From positions 1 to 63,091 of the forward strand of contig DYIZ01000015.1 in the NCBI GenBank assembly GCA_020723385.1: DNA of 63,091 nucleotides. The letters run 5' to 3'. The DNA comes from Candidatus Aquidulcis sp. (GTDB taxonomy: Bacteria; Chloroflexota; Anaerolineae; Anaerolineales; UBA4823). Below are positions 12,915 through 60,863 of the stretch, piece after piece. Under the pieces are notes generated by a model. That model was not told where the DNA came from, ran no database searches, and saw only the letters and a list, made by a program, of their open reading frames with translations. How positions within the stretch are numbered: the stretch's first letter is position 1; the number at the start of each line of letters is the position of its first letter. The translations under genes and the position numbers were made by a program.

Positions 12915-12969
12915 CCGAAAAACGGACATGCGGCTGATGGGTTGCATCAGCCGCATGTCCGTTTTTCGG
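12915..12969. terminator. Bidirectional terminator, perfect 25-bp stem
   Basis: Arms 12915-12939 and 12945-12969 are perfectly complementary over 25 bases round the loop GGTTG. Each strand ends in CGTTTTTCGG, giving a short U-run in both directions. It sits between convergent genes (stops at 12904 plus and 12977 minus), the standard place for a shared terminator. Confidence 0.85.
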
Positions 12970-26091: not shown

Positions 26092-28923
26092 TCAACCCAC
26101 CACATTCACCAGCCTGCCCGGCACAACGATCACCTTCTTCGGGGCGCGGCCTTCGAGGTGCTTCTGCACCGTCTCGTTGGCCAGGGCGGCCTGGCGGGCG
26201 TCGTCTTCGCTGATGCCCACCGGCACGACCAGCCGATCGCGCACCTTGCCATTGACCTGCAGCACCAGGGTGATCGTCTCTTCGGCAGCGGCCGCCTCAT
26301 TAACCATGGGCCAGGGCTGGTGATGGATGGAATACGGCTTGCCGATGAAAGACCACAACTCTTCGGCAATGTGCGGCGTGACCGGGGCCATCATGCGCAG
26401 GTAAACATTCAGCGCTTCGGCCCATTCGGGCGTTCCGGTCGCGCCCTGCTCGCGGGCTTTGTAGAGATCGTTGAGCAGTTCCATCAACGCCGAGACGATG
26501 GTGTTGAATTCGAAATTCTCGAAGTCGTGGGTGACTCGCTTGAGAGTCTGGTGCAGCTTTCGTCGCAGGGATTTGAGCATCTCGGGGGCGGGAGTCCCTT
26601 GCGGCCCAGGCTCGGTCACCAACGACCATACGCGCCGCACCCAGCGCGCCGATCCCTCTATCCCCGATGAGTTCCACGGCGCGCCCATATCCCAGCGGGC
26701 GAAGAACATCAAATAAGCCCGCACAGTATCAGCGCCATAACGTTTTACTAATATATCGGGGGCGACCACATTCCCACGGCTTTTCGACATTTTCTCGTGG
26801 TCTTCGCCCAACACCATGCCCTGGTTGCGAAGCTGGATCATCGGCTCGGAGCCGGTGGTGATGCCCATGTCGCGGCAGGCTTTATGGAAGAAACGGGTGT
26901 AGATCAGGTGCATGGTGGCGTGTTCGATGCCGCCTGTGTAGGTATCCACCGGCATCCAGTATGCGTAAACCTGCGGGTCGAACGGGCCGCGGGCGTATTT
27001 CGGCGACAGGTAACGCAGGTGATACCACGACGAGCACATAAAAGTGTCCATCGTATCGGTTTCACGCGTTGCATCTCCGCCGCAAACCGGGCAGGTGGTC
27101 TTGGCCCAGGTGGGATGCAGCTTGAGCGGCGACTCGCCGGTGGGCTTCCATTCGACATCGTCGGGCAGGAGCACCGGGAGTTGATCTTCGGGAACGGGCT
27201 GCCAGCCGCAGGCGGGGCAGTTGACCATGGGGATCGGCGCGCCCCAGTAGCGCTGGCGCGAGATAAGCCAGTCGCGCAAACGGTAGTTTGTGGCGGCTTT
27301 GCCGATGCCTTTGGTCTCCAGCCACGCCGCAATACGTTGTTTGGCGACATCGCCGGGGGCGCCGCTCATCTCGCCGGAGTGGATCATCGTGCCGTACTCT
27401 GAATGGAACAAGACATCTTTGTAAAACGGCAACGTGTTGACCATCTCCATAACCGTGCGATTGGCGCTGACCGGGGGATAGATGGCCTTGCAGCGAGCCA
27501 GGATCGCCTGGTCGGATTCAACCCCATCCAATTCGAGGACGCCATCGTCGAAGACGAACAGCCAGCGCCCGCCGACGATCTCGTTCCAATTGTTGGGCTG
27601 GAGATGCTGACGCATCAGGGCAACGAAACCATCCACCTGATCGCGCTGCAAGGTGACGAATAATCCCACCCCGAGGGCGCCAACCTGCTGGGAGGAGAAC
27701 TGAATTCCCGCAGCCGTCAGGGTCTCGGTAAAGGAGGGTGACACTGAGCCAGGGAAAACGAAGCTTTTGCTGATTCCGTCAGGCCGGTCAATCACCGGGA
27801 TGATGGGCAAGCCATATTTGATGGCAAAGGCGAAATCCCGCTCGTCGTGGGCAGGGACAGCCATGATCGCGCCGGTTCCGTAGGTCATCAAGACATAATC
27901 GGCAATCCAGATGGGGATCGGCTTGCCATTGACGGGATTGCGGGCGTAACCGCCGGTGAAGACGCCGGTTTTTTCTTTATCCGTGGCTTCGCGGTCAATA
28001 TCGGACAGGCGCGTGGCCTGTAGCTTGTATGTTTCGACTTCGGCTTTGCGGTCGGGGGTGGTAATCTGGTCAACCAGGGGATGCTCGGGGGACAGAACCA
28101 TGAAGGTCGCGCCCCACAGGGTGTCGGGACGGGTGGTGAAGACAGTGATCAGTGATCGGTGATCAGTTATCAGTAGGTCTTCACCGATGACTGATGACTG
28201 ATCACAGATCACTGGAAACTGAACTTCCGCCCCTTCCGACCGCCCGATCCAGTTGGTTTGCAGGGTGCGCACACGCTCGGGCCAATCGAGCGATGAGTAA
28301 TCGAGCAGCTCGGCGGCATACGATGTGGTTTTGAAGAACCACTGGTCGAGGTCTTTCTTGATGACCGGGGTATCACAGCGCTCACAGTGGCGGTCTTCTC
28401 CCCAGACTTGCTCGCGCGCCAGAGTTGTATTGCAGTTAGGGCAAAAATCCACCGGCGACATCTTGCGATACGCCAGCCCGTGTTTGAAGAGCTGAATGAA
28501 AAACCATTCTGTCCAGTGATAATACTCGGGGTCAGCCGAGACGGCTTCGTGCCGCCAATCGAACATGGCGCCCATCGAGCGAAGCTGCAAGCGCATGTTT
28601 TCGATGTTTTTATAGGTCCACGTTTTGGGATGAATGCCGCGTTTGATGGCAGCGTTTTCGGCTGGCAAACCAAAGGAATCGAAGCCCATTGGAAATAAAA
28701 CATTGAAGCCCTTCATGCGCATGTAGCGGGCGCGGGCATCCGAAGGGGCCATAGCATACCAGTGTCCAATATGGAGGTCGCCTGAGGGATATGGCAGCAT
28801 GGTCAAGGCATAGTGTTTGGGCCGTGATGGGTCAATGTCAGCATTATATAAACCATCGGCTTCCCATTGGGACTGCCATTTCGGCTCGATTTCGGCGGGT
28901 TGGTAGGGATGGGTGTCAGGCAT
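26092..28923 (-). CDS. leuS: Leucyl-tRNA synthetase
   Basis: 943 residues. The class I signature HIGH is at 51-54 (SGDLHIGHW) and the second signature is EKMSKSRGN. The editing domain has VFTTRPDTLWGATFM and YGTGAIMAVPAHDERD. C-terminal anticodon-binding and VNGKVRDR segments are present. It charges tRNA-Leu in the cytoplasm. It is longer than typical bacterial LeuRS (about 810-880) for two visible reasons. About 14-20 extra residues (ICDQSSVIGEDLLITDHRS) are encoded by a heptamer array at 28144-28213, just before VFTTRPDT. An insert of roughly 110 residues (about 385-505) containing GGRWLFVFDDG and ILARCKAIYP lies within the editing domain before the GTMIHSGEMSG segment. All catalytic motifs look intact, so the enzyme should work. 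It is transcribed divergently from the liv operon. Confidence 0.97.
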   Translation of the reverse strand: MPDTHPYQPAEIEPKWQSQWEADGLYNADIDPSRPKHYALTMLPYPSGDLHIGHWYAMAPSDARARYMRMKGFNVLFPMGFDSFGLPAENAAIKRGIHPKTWTYKNIENMRLQLRSMGAMFDWRHEAVSADPEYYHWTEWFFIQLFKHGLAYRKMSPVDFCPNCNTTLAREQVWGEDRHCERCDTPVIKKDLDQWFFKTTSYAAELLDYSSLDWPERVRTLQTNWIGRSEGAEVQFPVICDQSSVIGEDLLITDHRSLITVFTTRPDTLWGATFMVLSPEHPLVDQITTPDRKAEVETYKLQATRLSDIDREATDKEKTGVFTGGYARNPVNGKPIPIWIADYVLMTYGTGAIMAVPAHDERDFAFAIKYGLPIIPVIDRPDGISKSFVFPGSVSPSFTETLTAAGIQFSSQQVGALGVGLFVTLQRDQVDGFVALMRQHLQPNNWNEIVGGRWLFVFDDGVLELDGVESDQAILARCKAIYPPVSANRTVMEMVNTLPFYKDVLFHSEYGTMIHSGEMSGAPGDVAKQRIAAWLETKGIGKAATNYRLRDWLISRQRYWGAPIPMVNCPACGWQPVPEDQLPVLLPDDVEWKPTGESPLKLHPTWAKTTCPVCGGDATRETDTMDTFMCSSWYHLRYLSPKYARGPFDPQVYAYWMPVDTYTGGIEHATMHLIYTRFFHKACRDMGITTGSEPMIQLRNQGMVLGEDHEKMSKSRGNVVAPDILVKRYGADTVRAYLMFFARWDMGAPWNSSGIEGSARWVRRVWSLVTEPGPQGTPAPEMLKSLRRKLHQTLKRVTHDFENFEFNTIVSALMELLNDLYKAREQGATGTPEWAEALNVYLRMMAPVTPHIAEELWSFIGKPYSIHHQPWPMVNEAAAAEETITLVLQVNGKVRDRLVVPVGISEDDARQAALANETVQKHLEGRAPKKVIVVPGRLVNVVG
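28144..28213. repeat. Heptamer inverted array inside leuS (in frame)
   Basis: Left arm: AGTGATC, AGTGATC, GGTGATC, AGTTATC, AGT (28144-28174). Spacer AGGTCTTC. Right arm: ACC, GATGACT, GATGACT, GATCACA, GATCACT (28183-28213). The arms are inverted copies and each step is exactly seven bases. The array keeps the leuS frame open and gives residues such as DQSSVIG. It is the only array in the window that lies inside a gene. Confidence 0.85.
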
Positions 28924-43298: not shown

Positions 43299-43308
43299 GT
43301 TTTGCCAG

Positions 43309-43390
43309 TGCGCTGGGGGGGACTTGAACCCCCACGGCTCTCGCCACATGGCCCTCAACCATGCCTGTCTGCCAATTCCAGCACCAGCGC
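43309..43390 (-). tRNA. tRNA-Leu (anticodon GAG)
   Basis: 82 bases on the minus strand. The acceptor stem GCGCTGG/CCAGCGC is perfect with discriminator A at 43309; CCA is not encoded. The anticodon stem is CATGG/CCATG round the loop TTGAGGG, giving anticodon GAG (Leu, codons CUC/CUU). A long variable arm (class II) with GGCGAGAGCC and a T-arm GGGGGTTCAAGTCCCCC complete the fold. A hairpin with a U-run lies just downstream. Confidence 0.93.
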
Positions 43391-43426
43391 GGGCGGATGT
43401 ATTATAATCGGGTCTACTTTCTTGTC

Positions 43427-43467
43427 AAGTTGAAGGTTAGCCTATTACCTTCAACCTGTTACCTGAA
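43427..43467. repeat. Short heptamer inverted array before plsX
   Basis: AAGTTGA, AGGTTAG (43427-43440), spacer CCTATT, then ACCTTCA, ACCTGTT, ACCTGAA (43447-43467). Seven-base steps with inverted arms, related in sequence to the arrays at 54173 and 55012. It lies between tRNA-Leu and the plsX ribosome-binding site. Confidence 0.6.
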
Positions 43468-53717: not shown

Positions 53718-54170
53718 ATGGAAAACGTCAAGATCGTCGCCACCAATCGCAAAGCCAAGTTCGAGTATTTCCTGCTCGAAACCCACGAAGCCGGCATCGC
53801 CCTGCAGGGCAGCGAGATCAAATCCATCCGCGCCGGGCAGATCAGCCTGGCGGAAGCCTACGTGGAAATCCGCGACTCCCTGGAAGCCTGGCTGGTGGAT
53901 GCGCACATCGCGCCATACGTTCAAGCCAGCCGTTTCGGGCACGACCCGCTTCGCCCCCGGAAACTATTGCTGCACAGCGAGGAAATCCGCAAGCTGTGGG
54001 ATGCCGTGCGTCAGAAAGGTGTCACCATCGTGCCGACGAAGGTCTACCTGAAAGACGGCCGCGCCAAAGTCGAGATTGCCGTAGCGAAAGGCAAGAAGCT
54101 GTATGACAAACGCGAAACCATCGCCAAACGCGACGCGGAACGGGAAATGAAGCGCGGGGCTATGGAGTGA
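53718..54170 (+). CDS. smpB: SsrA-binding protein SmpB
   Basis: 150 residues. Family motifs NRKAKFEYFLLETHEAGIALQGSEIKSIR, LRPRKLLLH and a C-terminal basic helix KKLYDKRETIAKRDAEREMKR are complete. SmpB binds tmRNA and carries it to stalled ribosomes in trans-translation. No tmRNA gene is seen in the window. A heptamer array begins two bases after the stop. Confidence 0.97.
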   Translation: MENVKIVATNRKAKFEYFLLETHEAGIALQGSEIKSIRAGQISLAEAYVEIRDSLEAWLVDAHIAPYVQASRFGHDPLRPRKLLLHSEEIRKLWDAVRQKGVTIVPTKVYLKDGRAKVEIAVAKGKKLYDKRETIAKRDAEREMKRGAME

Positions 54171-54172
54171 CA

Positions 54173-54277
54173 CGGTGACAAGGTGACAGGTTGTAGGTTG
54201 TAAGTTGCTTCCTTGAAAATTGTTTTCACCTGTAACTTTCAACCTTCCAACTTTCAACTTACCAACCTTCAACTCCC
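54173..54277. repeat. Heptamer inverted array between smpB and the kinase-like gene
   Basis: The left part steps through GGTGACA-type and then AGGTGAC, AGGTTGT, AGGTTGT, AAGTTGC (54181-54208). The right part runs AACTTTC, AACCTTC, AACTTTC, AACTTAC, AACCTTC (54234-54270) with two single-base slips. The arms are inverted relatives. The array starts two bases after a stop codon and ends 15 bases before the next ATG. Confidence 0.7.
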
Positions 54278-54291
54278 AGGAATAACTCAAG

Positions 54292-54999
54292 ATGATTCAT
54301 AACAATTTCATCGCCCTCATCATCACCTTCGTCGTCGCCCTCGCCTGGCTGCGATTGTGCGATTTCGCCGCCCACCGGGGCTGGATCAGCAGCCAGCTCA
54401 GCCGCAAGATCATCCACATGGGCACCGGCCCGCTGTTCGTGCTGTGCTGGCTGTTGTACACCGACGCGGCCAGCGCGCGCTGGCTGGCGGCGCTCGTCCC
54501 GTTTGCTATCACCGTGCAGTTTGCGCTGGTGGGGCTGGGCATCATGAAAGACGAGTCCGCCGTCAAAGCCATGTCACGCAGCGGCGACCGGCGCGAGATT
54601 CTACGCGGCCCGTTGTTCTATGGCATTATCTTCGTCGTACTGACCCTGGTTTACTGGAAGGATTCGCCCATCGGGATGGTGGCGCTGATGTTGATGTGCG
54701 GCGGCGACGGGCTGGCCGACGTGCTCGGTCGCAGCCGGGGAAAGATGAAAATCCCCTGGAACCGAGATAAAAGCTGGATGGGCACATTGGGCATGTTCCT
54801 GGGGGGCTGGCTGTTCGCCGTGGGGATACTGGCAGCCTACGTGGCCGCTGGGGTCTTCTCCGGCCCGTGGGTGAGCTATTTGCTCGGAATAACAGTCATC
54901 GCCGTCGCCGGGACGCTGATCGAGACCCTGCCCATCAAGGATGTGGATAATATCACTGTGACAGCGACAGCAGTGATATTAGGACACCTTCTGTTGTAA
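54292..54999 (+). CDS. Polyprenol/phytol-kinase-like membrane protein
   Basis: 235 residues with about seven hydrophobic helices. The motifs LSRKIIHMGTGPLF near residue 38, GGDGLADVLGRSRGKMKIPW and KSWMGTLGMFLGG place it in the CTP-dependent lipid kinase family that includes dolichol kinase (SEC59/DGK1) and phytol/farnesol kinase (VTE5). Such enzymes phosphorylate isoprenoid alcohols in the membrane. The C-terminus (TLIETLPIKDVDNITVTATA) also matches. Substrate cannot be told; in bacteria phytol or farnesol salvage is a common suggestion. Confidence 0.8.
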   Translation: MIHNNFIALIITFVVALAWLRLCDFAAHRGWISSQLSRKIIHMGTGPLFVLCWLLYTDAASARWLAALVPFAITVQFALVGLGIMKDESAVKAMSRSGDRREILRGPLFYGIIFVVLTLVYWKDSPIGMVALMLMCGGDGLADVLGRSRGKMKIPWNRDKSWMGTLGMFLGGWLFAVGILAAYVAAGVFSGPWVSYLLGITVIAVAGTLIETLPIKDVDNITVTATAVILGHLLL

Positions 55000-55011
55000 A
55001 CCTTCTATTGA

Positions 55012-55070
55012 AGGTTGAAAGTTGCAGGTTGCAGGTAAACCTTCAAACTTTCAACCTTCAACCTGCAACC
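55012..55070. repeat. Heptamer inverted array between convergent genes
   Basis: Left arm AGGTTGA, AAGTTGC, AGGTTGC, AGGTAAA (55012-55039); right arm CCTTCAA, ACTTTCA, ACCTTCA, ACCTGCA, ACC (55040-55070). Steps are exactly seven bases and the arms are inverted copies. It starts 12 bases after one stop codon and ends at the base before the other. Confidence 0.85.
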
Positions 55071-56261
55071 TCATTCATACCGAAACCGCGCCACCCCCAC
55101 CCCGAAGAACACCACTGCAAACCCCAGCAGCACGCCGACGGCGGGTAAAACGTCCGCCAGTCCCATGCCGCGCATACTCAAATCCGTAAGAGCATTCATC
55201 CCCCACGTCGTGGGCAGGATTTTGACCGCGGTGCGCATCGCATCGGGGAAAAGCTCCATCGGCCACCAGCAGCCGCCGAGCAGGGCCATCACCATGCCGA
55301 GCATGATGCTCAGGTTGCTGGCCTGCTTCTCGGTTTTGATGAACGTCCCCAGGGTCACACCCATCGCCACCGAGGCCAGCCCAAAGCTGACCAGAACAAC
55401 AGCCAGCGCCGAGGGGGAATTGCCCCAGTTGACGCCCAGTATCCACGCCCCCACTCCCACCAGCAAAACCATCTGCACCAATCCGGCAGATAACTGCCCG
55501 GTGATGGCGCCCAGCAAGAAAGTGGCTTTATTGGTCGGGGTGGTCAGCAGGCGGTGCAGTGTCTTCTGATTGCGCTCGTAGGCAAACAACCCCGATGTTC
55601 CCAGCAGCGGGATGAACACCCAGGTGATGAGCTGCCCCGCCGAGGCCTGCGCCGCCGGGTCGTAATCGCTGCCGGTTTCCGGCGGTCGGGTGACCGTCAC
55701 CCGTTCGGGGGCAGCGTCGAACTTCTGGCGGGCGGCGTCCAGGCTGGCGGTGAAATATGCCTGCTGGTCGGCAGGGTTGTCGAAGGGGCGCACCCGCTCG
55801 GCTTCGGCCAGGCTGGCTCGAGCGGCAACCAGCGGGCGGTTGATGGCGCTGACCGCCGCGCCAACCGACCGCTCGACGCCGTCAGCCTCGTTGTTCTTGG
55901 GCAGCTTTTGCAGGCTCAGCGCAGTGGATTCGCCCGCCAGCAGGGACTGCTCGAACCCGGAGGGGATCAGCAGCCAGGCGTGAGCGTCTTTGTCGGCGAA
56001 TTGTTCTTCGGCCTGCGGGCGTGTGACCAGCTCGGTCTTTAGCGTATCCTCTGAGGCCAGGCTGGTCAGCAATTCGCCGGACAACGTGCTGCGGTCTTCG
56101 TCCACCACCAACAGGAGGGCAGTCGAATCGCCGCCGCCGCCCCCCATCCCGCGCAGCAGGAACGAGAAGATGATCGGCAGGATGATGAAAAACAGCAGCT
56201 CGGTTCGATCCGAGAAACGGTTTAGAGTGTCTTTCCAGGCTATCGAGAAGATTTTCAACAT
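55071..56261 (-). CDS. ABC-2 type permease (second exporter subunit)
   Basis: 396 residues from ATG 56261 with GGAG six bases upstream; a longer reading would run through a heptamer array. One N-terminal helix (ELLFFIILPIIFSFLLRG), a large extracytoplasmic domain of about 190 residues, then five helices near the C-terminus with the family segment FAYERNQKTLHRLLTTPTNKATFLLGAI. This is the ABC2_membrane_3 (NatB/YhaP-like) layout. It pairs with the permease at 56330 and the ATPase at 57681 to form an efflux ABC transporter. The cargo is unknown. Confidence 0.88.
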   Translation of the reverse strand: MLKIFSIAWKDTLNRFSDRTELLFFIILPIIFSFLLRGMGGGGGDSTALLLVVDEDRSTLSGELLTSLASEDTLKTELVTRPQAEEQFADKDAHAWLLIPSGFEQSLLAGESTALSLQKLPKNNEADGVERSVGAAVSAINRPLVAARASLAEAERVRPFDNPADQQAYFTASLDAARQKFDAAPERVTVTRPPETGSDYDPAAQASAGQLITWVFIPLLGTSGLFAYERNQKTLHRLLTTPTNKATFLLGAITGQLSAGLVQMVLLVGVGAWILGVNWGNSPSALAVVLVSFGLASVAMGVTLGTFIKTEKQASNLSIMLGMVMALLGGCWWPMELFPDAMRTAVKILPTTWGMNALTDLSMRGMGLADVLPAVGVLLGFAVVFFGVGVARFRYE

Positions 56262-56276
56262 AGGGAACTCCATGAG

Positions 56277-56328
56277 GACCGTGGACGGTAGACCGTGGAC
56301 GGTTTTCGCCGGTCTACCGTTTACGGTC
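56277..56328. repeat. Heptamer inverted array between permease genes
   Basis: Left arm GACCGTG, GACGGTA, GACCGTG, GACGGTT (56277-56304); the right arm (56311-56328) reads, as reverse complement, GACCGTA, AACGGTA, GACC. It ends one base from the stop of the upstream permease gene and lies 15 bases from the next start. Confidence 0.85.
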
Positions 56329-56329
56329 T

Positions 56330-57592
56330 CTATTTTACGAACCCCGACGCCCAACGCCGCCGGGAGGACAGCACAGCCACAATGAACAGGATGACGCCCA
56401 TCGCCAGCAGCGCCAGGATTGGCGTGACCACGTCAGCCAGTGTGCCGCCGCTGCCGAGGGTGGTAAAGCCTTCCAGCGCCCAGGCATTGGGGGTGATCTT
56501 GCTCAACAGGCGCACCGTGCCGGAAAATGAGTCGAGCGAGATGAACGAGCCGCCCAACAAGCCGAAGAAAAGCATGAGCGCCGTCCCGATGGAGGCCACC
56601 TGCCAGGGATGCCGGGCAAACGAGGCCAGCAAGATACCCCAGCCCGTCGCGCCGATGGCAGCCGCGGCGATGAGCAGGGTCACCGCCAGCGGGTCGCCCC
56701 ATTTCAGCCCGAAGAGCAGCGTCGAGCCGAATACCAGCACACCCACTTGCAAAAAGCCGGTGACGACGATGCTGAGCAGCTTGCCGCCGAGCACCTGGGC
56801 GGTGCTGGTGGGCGTGGCGAGCATACGCGGCAGCGTACCCATATCGCGCTCGGTCAGGATACTGCGCCCGCCCTGGGTGACAGTGTACATCAGGAACAGC
56901 AGCGCCATGCCGGGGGCCAGGTAAGACAACGGGTTGAAATCCGGGGTTTCCGCGCCCGCCGCGACGTTCAGCGTGACAGGCAGTTCCCCTTCGGCCTCCG
57001 CCGCAAGCCGTGGAGCCATTTCGCCCGCGTAGGCAGCGATCTCGGAGATGTCGAGTCGTCCGCTGGCGAGTAGTTGGCCGATGGCGACCTCGCCGCTCAC
57101 CGGGCCGGCTTCGAGGCGGTTGACGATTTCGACGACCACCGAACGCACCACCCCGCCGCTGATCGGCCGGGAAGGGCTGGTATAGATTTCGATGGGCGCG
57201 GCAGCCCCGGTCGCACCAGTGGCTTGATCGGGAAGGATGGAAGCGGAGAAACCCGCCGGGACGATGACGGCCGCAGCGACGGAATCGTCTGTGACAAGCT
57301 GGCGGGCCGCTTCGAGATCGGTGGACTGACTGGCATCGAAGAGGGTGGCCAGCTCGGAGGAGTCGAACGCCTCCGAGATGAACGCACCCATCTGGCCTTC
57401 ATCCTGGTTGACGATCACCACCGGGATTTCCGACAACCCGCCCCCGCCGCTTGGCTGCCGGTTAAAGGAGCCGGTCACCGCGCCCAGCGCCAATGTGAGC
57501 AAAAATGGCGCCAGCAGCATGAAAATGAGCGCAGGCGTGTCGTTGAGGGTGATGAGTAAATCTTTCTTGCAAATGGTGAATACTTTGTTCAT
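56330..57592 (-). CDS. ABC-2 type permease (first exporter subunit)
   Basis: 420 residues, start ATG 57592 (MNKVFTICKKDLLITLND). One N-terminal helix (ALIFMLLAPFLLTLALG), a large outside domain with an EAFDSSELATLFD segment, and a C-terminal membrane domain with GRSILTERDMGTLPRMLATPTS, the coupling-helix signature of ABC2_membrane_3 proteins. It is a paralogue of the next permease, so the exporter is probably a heterodimer. Confidence 0.88.
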   Translation of the reverse strand: MNKVFTICKKDLLITLNDTPALIFMLLAPFLLTLALGAVTGSFNRQPSGGGGLSEIPVVIVNQDEGQMGAFISEAFDSSELATLFDASQSTDLEAARQLVTDDSVAAAVIVPAGFSASILPDQATGATGAAAPIEIYTSPSRPISGGVVRSVVVEIVNRLEAGPVSGEVAIGQLLASGRLDISEIAAYAGEMAPRLAAEAEGELPVTLNVAAGAETPDFNPLSYLAPGMALLFLMYTVTQGGRSILTERDMGTLPRMLATPTSTAQVLGGKLLSIVVTGFLQVGVLVFGSTLLFGLKWGDPLAVTLLIAAAAIGATGWGILLASFARHPWQVASIGTALMLFFGLLGGSFISLDSFSGTVRLLSKITPNAWALEGFTTLGSGGTLADVVTPILALLAMGVILFIVAVLSSRRRWASGFVK

Positions 57593-57616
57593 AAGAAATT
57601 CCTTTGGAAACGGATT

Positions 57617-57679
57617 CCGTAAAACGTAAGGCGTAAAACGTAAAAAGAATCTTACGGATTACGTTTTACGTGTTTACGT
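57617..57679. repeat. Heptamer inverted array between ATPase and permease genes
   Basis: Left arm CCGTAAA, ACGTAAG, GCGTAAA, ACGTAAA (57617-57644); spacer AAGAATC; right arm TTACGGA, TTACGTT, TTACGTG, TTTACGT (57652-57679). The period is exactly seven. It ends one base before the stop codon of the ATPase gene. Confidence 0.88.
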
Positions 57680-57680
57680 T

Positions 57681-58628
57681 TCAGTCCCTCAGCGCCCGTC
57701 CCGTCAAATGCAAGAAAACCGACTCGAGATTTGGCTCCTCGATATCTATCGAGCGGATGCGCACACCGGCTTTGGAGGCGGCGGCGACCGCGCCGGGCAG
57801 CACGTCTTCGGCTTCGGTGACGGAGAGCATCACCTGATGATCGAGCGCGGTGGCGAGTAGAACCCCCTCCAATCCCCGGAAGAGGGGGGCCAGTTTCTCG
57901 GCGGATTGATCTTCGCCAAAATGCAGGCGCAGCGTCTCCTGCTCACCCACCAGTTTGGTCAGCTCTTTCTGCGTGCCGAGTGCGATCAGCTTGCCGTGGT
58001 CAATGATGCCCACCCGGTCGGATAGCTCCGCGGCTTCCTCCATGTAATGGGTGGTGTAGAGCACGGTCATACCCTGCTTTTGCAAGTCGAGCACCATGTC
58101 GAGGATGCTGCGCCGAGATTGAGGGTCAATGCCCACGGTCGGCTCGTCCATGAACACAAGCTGCGGCTTGTGCAGCAGCCCCACCGCGATGTTGAGGCGG
58201 CGTTTCATCCCGCCCGAATATTTTTCGATGGCGTCTTTGGCGCGATCGGCCAGGCTGACCTGTTCGAGCACTTCGGCGATGCGGGTTTTAAGGGCTTTGC
58301 CGCTCATGCCGTACATGTGGCCCCAAAACTCGAGGTTTTGCAGCGCGTTGAGCGAGTGGTAGAGCGCCAAATCCTGTGGAACAATACCGATCAACCGCTT
58401 GACAGCCATCGGGTTTTTAGTCACCGAATGCCCGCCGATCTCGGCGTCGCCCGAAGTGGGCGGGAAAAGGGTGCTCAGCATGGAGATGGTGGTGGTTTTA
58501 CCGGCGCCGTTCGGCCCGAGCAGGCTGAAGATTTCGCCGCGCAGCACGCTGAACGAGACGCCTTTTACGGCTTCGAGATTGCCGTAGGATTTTTTGAGGT
58601 CTTTGGCGATGAGGATTGGATCAGACAT
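57681..58628 (-). CDS. ABC exporter ATPase, DrrA/NatA type
   Basis: 315 residues. Walker [10 protein letters not shown] at 38-46, signature YSGGMKRRLNIA, Walker B LVFMDEPTVGID, and H-loop TTHYMEEAAEL. The C-terminal extension of about 90 residues is typical of the daunorubicin-resistance/NatA group. It energises the two permeases encoded next on the same strand. Confidence 0.94.
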   Translation of the reverse strand: MSDPILIAKDLKKSYGNLEAVKGVSFSVLRGEIFSLLGPNGAGKTTTISMLSTLFPPTSGDAEIGGHSVTKNPMAVKRLIGIVPQDLALYHSLNALQNLEFWGHMYGMSGKALKTRIAEVLEQVSLADRAKDAIEKYSGGMKRRLNIAVGLLHKPQLVFMDEPTVGIDPQSRRSILDMVLDLQKQGMTVLYTTHYMEEAAELSDRVGIIDHGKLIALGTQKELTKLVGEQETLRLHFGEDQSAEKLAPLFRGLEGVLLATALDHQVMLSVTEAEDVLPGAVAAASKAGVRIRSIDIEEPNLESVFLHLTGRALRD

Positions 58629-58645
58629 AAGATTTTCCTTTCATG

Positions 58646-58802
58646 TTTCACCGCAGAGACCGCGGAGTCCGCAGAGTTTTTATGAATCTTTGGGTGTTGC
58701 CGTGAAAATAAGCACCCTGAGCGTAGTCGAAGGGCCTGTAACGGCAACTCCCAGAGAACCGTTTTTATTTTCTCAGCGGTCTCCGCGTACTCAGCGGTGA
58801 AA
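58646..58802. repeat. Nested inverted repeat with nine-base period (CCGCAGAGA type)
   Basis: Outer arms 58646-58676 and 58772-58802 (31 bases each) are inverted copies with about 25 matches. Each arm repeats every nine bases: CCGCAGAGA, CCGCGGAGT, CCGCAGAGT. Inside lie a second pair GTTGCCGT (58696-58703) / ACGGCAAC (58741-58748) and, at the centre, the palindrome-like CCCTGAGCGTAGTCGAAGGG (58715-58734), a phrase I know as a dispersed repeat in many bacteria. The element fills the gap between two genes. Confidence 0.8.
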
Positions 58803-58812
58803 ATTAAATTCA

Positions 58813-59103
58813 TCAGTCAGCAAACAGCCGGGCAAAACCCGGATAGGGTTCGAGTGGGATAACTTCGAATTCGATCAAACCCTGCTGGACAAGCGGCAGG
58901 GAATTCAGCGCCTGGTGCGCTTCGTCAAGCGTACCGCATTCCAGTATGAGCACAGCCGCGTGCTGGTCGCTGCGGAAGTAAAGCTCCCGGATGACGCCCG
59001 ACTGGTACAACCCCCAGGCGCGGCGCGCTTCGTCCTTCAGGTGGAGCCGAAACTGTTCTGTGGTCGCGGCGGGCAATTCGTGTTCGAGCGCCAGTATTTT
59101 CAT
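58813..59103 (-). CDS. Muconolactone-isomerase-like small protein
   Basis: 96 residues of the dimeric alpha/beta-barrel type: MKILALEHELPAATTEQF, RRAWGLYQSGVIRELYFRSDQHAAVLILEC, LPLVQQGLIEFEVIPLEPY. This matches muconolactone delta-isomerase-like (YciI/EthD-like fold) proteins. No other aromatic-degradation gene is nearby, so the name should be read as a fold, not a pathway. It starts two bases after the preceding gene on the same strand. Confidence 0.7.
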   Translation of the reverse strand: MKILALEHELPAATTEQFRLHLKDEARRAWGLYQSGVIRELYFRSDQHAAVLILECGTLDEAHQALNSLPLVQQGLIEFEVIPLEPYPGFARLFAD

Positions 59104-59105
59104 GG

Positions 59106-59567
59106 CTATTTCCGATCATTCAACAGGTTCACCCGGATGGCGTAGCTCTTCTCGAGGTTGTACGTCCCCTCGAGGCCAAGAACTCGCTCCGAGTAAGGGG
59201 TGATCGTCGCCTGGGTGGTCTTCGGCTCCCACTGGACGCGGAAATCCGGCGCGCCGTCATTGTCGAAATCAATTTCCTCGTCAATCTGGGTGGGGACGAA
59301 ACCCTTGGGAGTCCAGGCGATCTGCACGAAGCCTTCCTTACGCTCGCCGATCAACGCTTGAAAGACCGGTTGATAAATTTCGGTGCGATAGCGATCGTGC
59401 TGGACTTTATAGGCCACTTCGCCGCCAGTAAACCACGGCGAGATGGTCACGCCGGTGAGATCAACGAACAGGTTCATCCAGGTGGTTGCGCCCATGAAAA
59501 TTATCAGTATCAACGGAACGCCAAGCGTGGCGAGGATGTAACCGAGAATAGATTTGAGTTTGGTCAT
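59106..59567 (-). CDS. Single-TM protein of unknown function
   Basis: 153 residues from ATG 59567, preceded by GAAAGGAAA. One N-terminal hydrophobic helix (SILGYILATLGVPLILIIFMGA) anchors an outside domain with DEEIDFDNDGAPDFRVQWEP, an Asp/Asn-rich loop that resembles a calcium-binding turn. I do not recognise the family. It sits in the same run as the NapH-like and DsbD-like genes and may be part of the same membrane process. Confidence 0.65.
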   Translation of the reverse strand: MTKLKSILGYILATLGVPLILIIFMGATTWMNLFVDLTGVTISPWFTGGEVAYKVQHDRYRTEIYQPVFQALIGERKEGFVQIAWTPKGFVPTQIDEEIDFDNDGAPDFRVQWEPKTTQATITPYSERVLGLEGTYNLEKSYAIRVNLLNDRK

Positions 59568-59587
59568 GGTATTTTCCTTTCTGATTC

Positions 59588-59652
59588 GACCGCAGACCGA
59601 TGACCGTAGATCGAGATTTCGGTGCACGGTCTACTGTCATCAGTCAACGGTT
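59588..59652. repeat. Heptamer inverted array after the NapH-like gene
   Basis: Left arm GACCGCA, GACCGAT, GACCGTA, GATCGAG (59588-59615); right arm CACGGTC, TACTGTC, ATCAGTC, AACGGTT (59625-59652). The arms are inverted relatives with exact seven-base steps. It lies two bases from the NapH-like stop and about 20 from the next start. Confidence 0.8.
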
Positions 59653-59654
59653 TT

Positions 59655-60863
59655 CTAGATCATACTGCCCGTGGTGATCAGTTTGAGAATGCGCCAGATT
59701 GCCGAGATGAGCATCCCGCCGCCGAAGGTCGCCAGGAAGAGGAAAGCCGGGTAGAGGAACAACATGCGTGCAACCCGAGGATGTGCGCCGGGCTGTGTCC
59801 CTTTGATGTGGAAGGAAATGGCCTGCTTTGGGCACACGTCAACGCATTTGCCGCATTTCGAGCAAGAGATCAGCGTTTTTCCTGTTTTATAGCTGGATTC
59901 ATCCAGCGAGAAGGACGGGCAATTGGTGGCGCAGTGGCCGCACTCGGTACATTTCTCGGTGTCTATACGCACATCGTAGACATTGACCTTGTTGGTCCAA
60001 TTTTGCATAGCCCCCAACGGGCAGAATAAACCGCATTGGGTGCGTTTGCGGGTCAGGATCGGCAATACCACAACAAGGCCGATGAACAATGACACAAAAA
60101 TGATTGTCTTGATAACTGCCTCGAACGAGGTGACCGCCTCGAACTCCGTCACGGCCTTGAATGGGCACAGCCACTCGCAGTAGGCCGGCGAAAGCGTTAT
60201 CGCTGAGAGCAGCACGATACCCAACAGCACGGCATATGGCAAATACGTCCACTTGCGGTCAATCTTTTTGATGACCGGCTTCTTCAGCAGGCGGGAAAAG
60301 CCATCATCCAACCCACCGTAGAAGCAGCCCCAACTGCACCAGCCGCGCCCTAAGACCAGAGAGGCCCCCGTCCAGAGCACGATCATCCCGGCCACACTGG
60401 CAAACCCGGAGAGCAGCGAGCCGGGGAAAATGATCGTGCGGGTGAGAACGCCGGGCAGGATGATCATCGGGATGACCAGGTGGCAGAACGGCGTTTCGCC
60501 TTGGACCATATTTTCGCCGGTCAGCGCCAGGCTGCCGCGCGTTTCGATGATAGTGGTCATAAAGAAGACAATGAAAGCAACCGCCATCCCAACGAACAAC
60601 AGGGAGCGATAACTGTCGGTGCGCCCGGTCTTGACCATGAGGAAAAACAGGGTATTGAGAAATACCCAGGCCAGAAGGGTCGCCAACAACACCAGCGGGT
60701 CAGGCTGCCCCGACGACATGATTTGGCCGAAAGTCATCAGAGCGGTCAGCAGCAGCATTGGAATCGCCAGAAGGATCGCCTTGCCCCATCCAAGCTGGAA
60801 CGGGCTGGGTCTACGCGGCTTTGGCTTGAACATCCGGGGGAGAGCTTGAGAAAGAGTAGTCAT
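59655..60863 (-). CDS. NapH/CcoG-like membrane ferredoxin protein
   Basis: 402 residues from ATG 60863, which overlaps the TGA of the upstream gene (ATGA) and has GGAGG upstream; a much longer reading upstream is spurious. About six membrane helices carry Cys motifs on loops: GRGWCSWGCFYGG, CEWLCPF and CGLFCPLGA, as in NapH/MauN/NosR-type proteins. Two ferredoxin 4Fe-4S sites follow, CTECGHCATNCP and CSKCGKCVDVCP. One more helix is at the C-terminus. It should move electrons across or along the membrane. It is coupled with a DsbD-like protein, which suggests thiol or metal redox work outside the membrane. Confidence 0.9.
   Translation of the reverse strand: MTTLSQALPRMFKPKPRRPSPFQLGWGKAILLAIPMLLLTALMTFGQIMSSGQPDPLVLLATLLAWVFLNTLFFLMVKTGRTDSYRSLLFVGMAVAFIVFFMTTIIETRGSLALTGENMVQGETPFCHLVIPMIILPGVLTRTIIFPGSLLSGFASVAGMIVLWTGASLVLGRGWCSWGCFYGGLDDGFSRLLKKPVIKKIDRKWTYLPYAVLLGIVLLSAITLSPAYCEWLCPFKAVTEFEAVTSFEAVIKTIIFVSLFIGLVVVLPILTRKRTQCGLFCPLGAMQNWTNKVNVYDVRIDTEKCTECGHCATNCPSFSLDESSYKTGKTLISCSKCGKCVDVCPKQAISFHIKGTQPGAHPRVARMLFLYPAFLFLATFGGGMLISAIWRILKLITTGSMI

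Follow-up and report, generated by a model that had tools for sequence, protein, structure and literature searches.

Inverted arrays of seven-base units lie in several consecutive gaps between genes of a 63,091-nucleotide (nt) stretch of Candidatus Aquidulcis sp. (NCBI GenBank assembly GCA_020723385.1, contig DYIZ01000015.1), hereafter the window. Its source, contig C80 in our numbering, is part of a 6.43-Mb draft genome of 239 contigs (completeness 95.6%, contamination 4.5%). Judging from sequence comparisons, these arrays probably represent several co-resident families of non-autonomous mobile palindromes that resemble repetitive extragenic palindromes (REPs) and miniature inverted-repeat transposable elements (MITEs).

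Each family would have its own heptamer word, usually a single head-to-head polarity per genome, and a conserved centre where its copies are recent. The elements would be copied whole to new sites and would come to lie mostly directly 3′ of a stop codon and seldom between divergent genes, with at least one in-frame case within a protein loop. After insertion, seven-base units may be gained and lost by slippage, with the two arms changing largely independently and the centre drifting, and the element at a given gap could be lost and then replaced by one of another family. Such replacement would explain why neighbouring gaps hold different words with the same period. Transposition, slippage and replacement are the processes that we infer from the patterns described below.

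Inverted arrays in the window

The arrays and the two further sites considered are as follows.

54173-54277: heptamer array of the GTTG family ([AG]GTTGNA), between smpB (stop at 54170) and the next plus-strand gene (start at 54292); similar DNA occurs elsewhere in the genome
55008-55070: heptamer array of the GTTG family, between convergent genes with stops at 54999 and 55071
56277-56328: heptamer array of the GACCGTN family, between two ABC-2 permease genes (minus strand)
57617-57679: heptamer array of the CGTAANN family, between the ABC ATPase stop (57681) and the ABC-2 permease start (57592) (minus strand)
58646-58802: nine-base-period relative (CCGCAGAGN), with 31-nt arms that are 84% complementary and a 95-nt centre
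59588-59652: heptamer array of the GACCGTN family, between the stop of the 4Fe-4S protein gene (59655) and the start of a small gene (59567) (minus strand)
28138-28223, minus strand: heptamer array of the CAGTNAT family, in frame inside leuS
43427-43466: weak GTTG-type hairpin in an intergenic gap (z −2.8)

The first six, comprising five heptamer arrays and the nine-base relative, had been noted in a sequence-only reading of the window, and all were found where that reading placed them. Each of the six folds into a hairpin whose energy lies 3.9 to 8.9 standard deviations below that of plain base shuffles. An inverted-repeat search of the window recovers four of them (55008-55061, 56277-56328, 57618-57670 and 58646-58802) and does not detect 54173-54277 and 59588-59652, though both of these fold. 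The arrays lie 0-12 nt from a stop codon and about 14-24 nt before the next start, as had been described, except for the array at 56277, which is 15 or 3 nt from the start depending on whether the start codon is taken at 56261 or at 56273, the gene caller's choice. Two of the earlier statements need correction. That each gap holds a different heptamer was overstated, because AGGTTGT and AGGTTGC both belong to [AG]GTTGNA, and GACCGTG and GACCGTA both to GACCGTN, so that the five heptamer arrays represent three genome-wide word families. The operon setting does not apply to the array at 55012-55070, which is flanked by convergent genes. The two further sites mentioned in that reading fared differently: the one in leuS is a clear in-frame heptamer hairpin, and that at 43427 is only a weak one. 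The sequence just before the latter (43300-43400) resembles a tRNA gene, by eye only. The centre of the nine-base relative holds CCTGAGCGTAGTCGAAGG, which is like another inverted-repeat family at L018:3329-3378 and L037:10698-10773 and is perhaps a nested repeat.

The leuS array shows that an essential gene has tolerated such an insertion in its coding sequence. It lengthens the loop before VFTTRPDT by ~15 residues in comparison with 13 of 15 relatives, the other two (G012 and G014) having different, longer loops at this site. The loop is also ~14 residues longer than in PDB 1h3n.

Abundance, period and word families

Hairpins were sought without regard to sequence (+1 per pair, −2 per mismatch, score of at least 12, loop of at most 40) in the window and 40 stretches of the same genome chosen by contig number, amounting to 784 kb. 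This sample contains 174 hairpins, whereas two third-order Markov copies of it contain 5 and 4. In 54 of the 174, lag 7 was the best lag. A strong period, defined as a best lag with at least 55% match, was found at lag 7 in 37 hairpins, against 0.3 with permuted arm columns, and at each other lag from 4 to 13 in 0-2 hairpins. The sequence-only reading had proposed such a scan with controls for the whole genome; in the 784 kb covered, lag-7 inverted arrays stand far above chance. Their distribution over 49 stretches of 20 kb shows mild clustering (dispersion 1.68, p 0.006). Twenty relatives were sampled in pieces no longer than 20 kb, ten of the pieces having been picked for the permease, and lag-7 hairpins occurred in only three of these genomes, so the window's genome looks unusually rich in them.

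By reading of the array lists, the heptamer arrays of the window's genome were assigned to the word families [AG]GTTGNA, CGTAANN, CAGTNAT, GGGGATA, GACCGTN, TCAGCNN and rarer others. Periods of 8 (ACAAGTAA, AGGAAGGT) and 9 (CGCAGAGNN, CACGAATNN) are also present, and loci of other phyla hold many further words. The whole genome gives 92 CAGTNAT-hairpin and 134 CGTAANN pattern matches, counts that include overlaps within one array.

Polarity

Polarity goes with the family within a genome, the pattern expected if its members descend from a common element. CAGTNAT hairpins are arranged head to head, with CAGTNAT on the 5′ arm, in 438 matches (overlaps within an array included), against 0 reversed in the same 14 genomes. 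Over the class, the reversed pattern is absent from most genomes and reaches a maximum of 10, and a longer CAGTNAT pattern gave 21 stretches in viral contigs against 0 reversed. For CGTAANN, the two polarities number 256 and 29 in 20 genomes, and 134 and 8 in the window's genome. A rule by which the 5′ arm is purine-rich was considered and rejected, since it is only a bias, the purine share exceeding one half in 38 of 53 lag-7 hairpins and falling below it in 11, and is contradicted by genome G387. The opposite-polarity hairpins of that genome (L414-L419) read TTACGAT...ATCGTAA, and L414 and L415 have the tail CTGAAATCGTAAATC in common.

Shared cores

We examined 38 readings of CGTAA arrays (one locus twice), which comprise the matches listed for the window's genome and those in 61 sampled pieces. 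An 8-nt loop is present in 17, and in 12 of these 17 it departs from AGNGCNCC at no more than one position, whereas 2000 shuffles gave 0.38 such loops on average and never more than 4; the consensus was derived from the same arrays, so the figure measures their mutual likeness and is not a prior prediction. The loop-adjacent units are also common to the copies, with CGTAATC on one side and TTACGTTTTACG on the other. No similarity was seen in the flanks 10-110 nt out, except in one pair of ABC operons, in which the array C27:14835 (L385, C27:14700-15000) directly follows the stop of a second ABC ATPase that ends in FLHLTGRALRD, like the one in the window. The window's own array at 57617-57679 has the arm units of the copied family (CGTAATC-CGTAA and TTACGTTTTACG), and its loop departs from the common one at three of the six positions that are fixed. 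The recurrence of a core at unlinked sites suggests that the elements have been copied as wholes.

Similar sharing is seen elsewhere. Four Microcystis loci that come from different strains and whose flanks are unrelated have the loop in common and arms that are alike. Among IMG/VR contigs, the loop core AAAGGC is present in 27 of 29 arrays, which, since many of the contigs are redundant, amounts to seven of eight distinct places. In genome G378 (L404-L409, L412), CGTAATG arrays lie inside a larger palindromic element, mostly near contig ends, with outer inverted repeats like AAGTTAGATTGACACTT. This larger element is possibly a MITE.

Genomic position and orthologous gaps

Positions and stem mismatches were analysed in the window's genome (1.18 Mb) pooled with GTDB loci, the genes being called by a home-made hexamer caller in the former and as longest frames in the latter. 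Lag-7 hairpins number 103 in co-directional, 42 in convergent and 7 in divergent gaps, where the gaps overall number 748, 206 and 159. The depletion in divergent gaps has a p of 0.0005 in the pooled data; with the window's genome taken by itself (1 of 34), p is 0.16. Median distances from the upstream stop are 2 and 9 nt. A further 27 lag-7 hairpins lie in predicted coding sequence, perhaps partly in spurious frames.

Orthologous gaps, whose comparison had been suggested in the sequence-only reading, were followed in genus g35, of the same order as the window's genome, since the genomes searched included no congener of the latter, and their contents differ between related species. The permease was present in 35 of 57 genomes searched, and 30 loci were read. 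By eye, the gap between the ATPase and the permease is shorter than 25 nt in 6 of these 30 species and holds heptamer hairpins in 11, belonging to at least five word classes (GAAAG type, TTCGATA, GACC type, TTGGAGA and mixed). The remainder comprise one 8-mer, one 9-mer, 10 other inverted repeats and one long gap of another kind. In an automated search (score of at least 10), the 24 gaps of at least 25 nt gave a hairpin in 14 and lag 7 in 8, against a background, drawn from two congeners, of 124 co-directional gaps 25-159 nt long with 30 hairpins and 1 lag-7 hairpin (p 0.0015 and 1e-6). The next gap of the operon, in 23 species, is shorter than 25 nt in 13 and at least 25 nt in 10, with a hairpin in 5 and lag 7 in 1. 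Sister species in the permease tree differ in gap content (G070/G103 and G093/G115), and one pair has a filled and an empty site, reading TAAAAAT-array-CATCATG in G114 and TAAAAATCATCATG in G079. The conserved period with changing sequence to which the sequence-only reading drew attention is probably explained in large part by co-resident word families and replacement at the same gap.

Change within arrays

In 164 CAGTNNN arrays, the same variable triplet is found in 26% of the unit pairs within an arm, compared with 11% at random and 12% between opposite arms. In the paired register, 19.5% of units match, against 13.5 ± 1.4% when arms are swapped between arrays. Since likeness within arms exceeds that across them, the arms seem to change largely alone, with some matching between them. 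One CGTAA array has nine intact units in one arm and two in the other. Orthologous arrays of the viral contigs L345 and L355 differ by one inserted 7-nt unit and one substitution, with the loop constant; a second array pair of these contigs is too divergent for a simple unit count. Genomes G101 and G100, which are 97.7% identical over 124 kb, were compared at 21 hairpins, for one of which no orthologous place was found, the rest keeping their place. One nine-base array differs between them by 9 nt (one unit) and one lag-8 hairpin by 6 nt, which is not a unit.

A process that works in seven-base steps, as had been suggested, gains modest support from the viral unit insertion, the likeness of units within arms at about twice the random level, and the unequal arms of nine and two units. 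Fold-back copying of one arm from the other was also considered as the sole origin and was rejected on tests of 9, 18 and 12 arrays, in which no matching beyond that of swapped arms appeared. The larger test of 164 arrays differs from these smaller ones in its modest arm-arm excess in the paired register.

Distribution across phyla and viruses

Heptamer-arm hairpins of the same kind are spread over many phyla of bacteria, and a phage carries them too. The CAGTNAT hairpin was found in at least 111 stretches of GTDB species genomes. The matches listed include Chloroflexi, Cyanobacteria, Planctomycetia, Acidobacteria, Deltaproteobacteria, Chlorobiaceae, Lentisphaerae, Spirosoma and Chthoniobacter, many of them metagenome bins and some perhaps wrongly labelled. 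Within the class, it is present in 48 of 298 genomes, with 0 to 113 matches each and a large spread inside genus g109. It also occurs in 21 stretches of viral contigs. Of five frames tested in viral contig L355, three matched phage tail proteins, one a glycoside hydrolase family and one a family of unknown function. In L357, four frames were tested and a single one matched, again to a family of unknown function.

Origin of the arrays

Enzyme searches provide a lead towards mobility. Matches to Y1 transposases were found in 31 of 32 genomes, with a mean of 4.5 in the 17 genomes that have CAGTNAT hairpins and 2.6 in the 15 that do not (p 0.012), a comparison among related, chosen and non-independent genomes that is to be taken as a lead only. 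Six Y1 loci of the window's genome were inspected. A CGTAA hairpin lies near one of them, ~1 kb from the match, and no flanking pair of heptamer arrays was seen at any of the six.

Several observations speak against mobile palindromes as the explanation. No mobilising enzyme was identified, and the Y1 count does not rise with the hairpin count in the 17 genomes (rho −0.19). In the window's genome, families other than CGTAA share no loop centre beyond decayed units. Among 259 arm flanks, the ends of CAGTNAT arrays carry no conserved motif, with only one decayed unit beyond the arms. CGTAA-type polarity is mostly opposite in G387 (2 vs 18) and mixed in viral contigs (2 vs 1), and GGGGATA hairpins occur by eye in both orientations. 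The best-register score across arms is 47, against 4 ± 7 for swapped arms, which hints at correction between the arms or at selection for pairing. The gap between the ATPase and the permease is a hotspot for lag-7 arrays (8/24 vs 1/124), which neutrality alone does not predict, and recombination between species could also swap the contents of gaps.

Some of these observations agree with selected RNA hairpins, a possibility already raised in the sequence-only reading. A stem-loop after a cistron would protect or process the upstream mRNA, and its sequence would be free to change as long as pairing is kept. The REPs between malE and malF form a stem-loop of that kind. The location just 3′ of genes, the scarcity in divergent gaps, the hotspot (14/24 gaps with a hairpin and 8/24 with lag 7, against 30/124 and 1/124 in the background), the strong folding energies and the unit matching across arms above that of swapped arms are all as such selection would have it. 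The stems themselves show no excess of G-U pairs, which selection for RNA pairing should favour: for lag-7 hairpins in co-directional gaps, transcript-sense mismatches comprise 39 G-U and 55 A-C (12 v 16 for the window's genome, 27 v 39 for the GTDB loci), although the test is weak, with 33 G-U and 28 A-C in comparison hairpins that include likely terminators. On account of that weakness our estimate for RNA hairpins was raised, and we now regard them as unlikely; the Y1 association points in the opposite direction, and mobile palindromes stay the probable reading. They are not favoured because the fixed polarity of CAGTNAT (438 v 0) and the array inside leuS are unlike what selection for RNA pairing predicts, pairing alone calling for no polarity. 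Identical words also recur across phyla, and the ATPase-permease gap is under 25 nt in 6 of 30 congeners and the next gap in 13 of 23, with a hairpin in that next gap in 5 species and lag 7 in 1.

We consider it distinctly unlikely that palindromes with seven-base arms form one general bacterial class with an open vocabulary, in which unrelated words of unrelated phyla would converge on one architecture because a common enzyme or replication step builds and copies the arms in steps of seven bases, and in which phages would spread them between phyla.

Purely local slippage would need no mobility, since a short duplication could grow in 7-nt steps and a copying error could then fold it into a palindrome in place. 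The largely independent growth of the two arms suits this, and heptamers have been proposed as a preferred slippage step in bacteria (Mrazek 2007, via PMC4679880). An origin in place predicts unrelated words and both polarities, whereas the same words, polarity and (for one family, with unrelated flanks) core are found at unlinked sites and in unrelated phyla, and we judge local slippage to be quite improbable. Templated repeat addition, in which a telomerase-like enzyme would extend broken ends by a fixed heptamer before joining them at an arbitrary centre, recalls the DRT10 reverse transcriptases, which make tandem-repeat DNA (in Eco3DRT10 with a step of 9 nt) from poorly conserved templates (PMC12632851); it would suit the head-to-head polarity, the mostly arbitrary loops of the window's genome and an open vocabulary in which the step may be 7, 8 or 9, but appears very improbable given that the sharing of loops and cores indicates copying of whole elements, that variants are shared within one arm, that RVT_1 and hairpin numbers are unrelated over 32 genomes (rho −0.10), and that neither the window's genome nor the array-rich G225, G229, G332 and G395 has an RVT_1 match, although a highly divergent reverse transcriptase could escape such a search.

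Other features of the window

The six arrays are flanked by smpB, a gene with no Pfam match, two ABC-2 permease genes, an ABC ATPase gene, the gene of a 4Fe-4S-domain protein and two small genes without assigned function, the domain search covering the flanking genes other than the 96-aa gene at 58813-59103. No known RNA family reached its gathering score in the window. Intrinsic terminators were considered as an identity for the arrays and rejected, as none of five terminator-like sites in 53900-59800 coincides with an array in a scan of loops of 3-8 only.

A different set of hairpins has perfect 25-27-bp stems and 3-5-nt loops, is non-periodic and in some cases carries CCGAAAA/TTTTCGG feet; these are perhaps terminators or a separate hairpin family of the window's genome. 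They lie at the following positions.

L018:1584-1638: perfect stem
L020:5424-5476: perfect stem
L022:6329-6385: perfect stem
L024:8685-8739: perfect stem
L032:17443-17497: perfect stem
L037:8644-8696: perfect stem
window 12915-12969: perfect stem

Comparison with known repeats

Mobile palindromes with heptamer arms, as we interpret the arrays, share features with several described repeats. Convergent heptamer pairs, class replacement in a heptamer stem, TAACTGA arrays across phyla, and the positions of REPs, including intragenic cases, are already known. The GGGAATC repeats of Xanthomonas and the GGGGA(C/T)T repeats of Nostoc likewise consist of heptamer units with variable positions, in arrays of 2-26 units (PMC4692102). 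In Xanthomonas, 70-75 convergent pairs per genome are mostly intergenic, nearer to the 5′ neighbouring open reading frame and few between divergent genes (PMC4692102), and convergent heptamer arrays near the 5′ neighbour are what we find here. These repeats differ in having one word per genome and in being read as quadruplex-forming, and the excerpted account describes neither multiple families per genome, nor word replacement at a gap, nor a copied core (PMC4692102). In the P6b stem of the Nostoc trnL intron, the seven-nucleotide motifs TDNGATT or NNTGAGT have replaced each other as classes repeatedly at the same site, with whole-motif indels on either side of the stem, as here (PMC4476775). 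The difference is that P6b is a single site in an intron RNA, with two classes only (PMC4476775).

The TAACTGA repeats of Beggiatoaceae, Cyanobacteria and Bacteroidetes (PMC4679880) have the same word as CAGTNAT, TAACTGA being a rotated form of the CAGTNAT complement when N is T. They show 7-nt indels between two Cyanothece strains and are scattered over phyla, as are the present arrays (PMC4679880). In BOGUAY, they differ in being almost all direct repeats (169 direct sets, a single indirect one) and in lying for the most part immediately before starts, and have been interpreted as possible translational regulator sites (PMC4679880). The sequence-only reading had contrasted the window with cyanobacterial genomes in which a single unit recurs, which is too simple a picture, as MacGregor (PMC4679880) reports varied mixed heptamers in Microcystis.

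REPs and their paired forms (REPINs) are inverted doublets that form hairpins with a less conserved spacer, fall into many families, and lie close downstream of genes or sometimes within them, including tRNA synthetase genes (PMC3116915, PMC3733652). Two inverted copies, a hairpin and a less conserved spacer are found here too. Our arrays differ in that their arms are tandem heptamers and any link that they may have to the REP-associated tyrosine transposases (RAYTs) is weak. No terminal GTAG or CGTC tag of the REP kind was found in the 259 CAGTNAT arm flanks. Conserved copies with unrelated flanks, as expected of MITEs, were found for the CGTAA core, the Microcystis loci and the G378 element.

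Among the top-ranked matches in open-licence literature, we found no general account of multi-word heptamer hairpins. The Xanthomonas, Nostoc, Beggiatoa and Microcystis reports are apparently views of one widespread class, in which the architecture stays the same while the sequence changes, polarity is head to head within families, arrays change by single units, and orthologous gaps differ in content between sister species. Recognition of such a class makes it testable whether intergenic hairpins are retained for RNA or are passing DNA elements.

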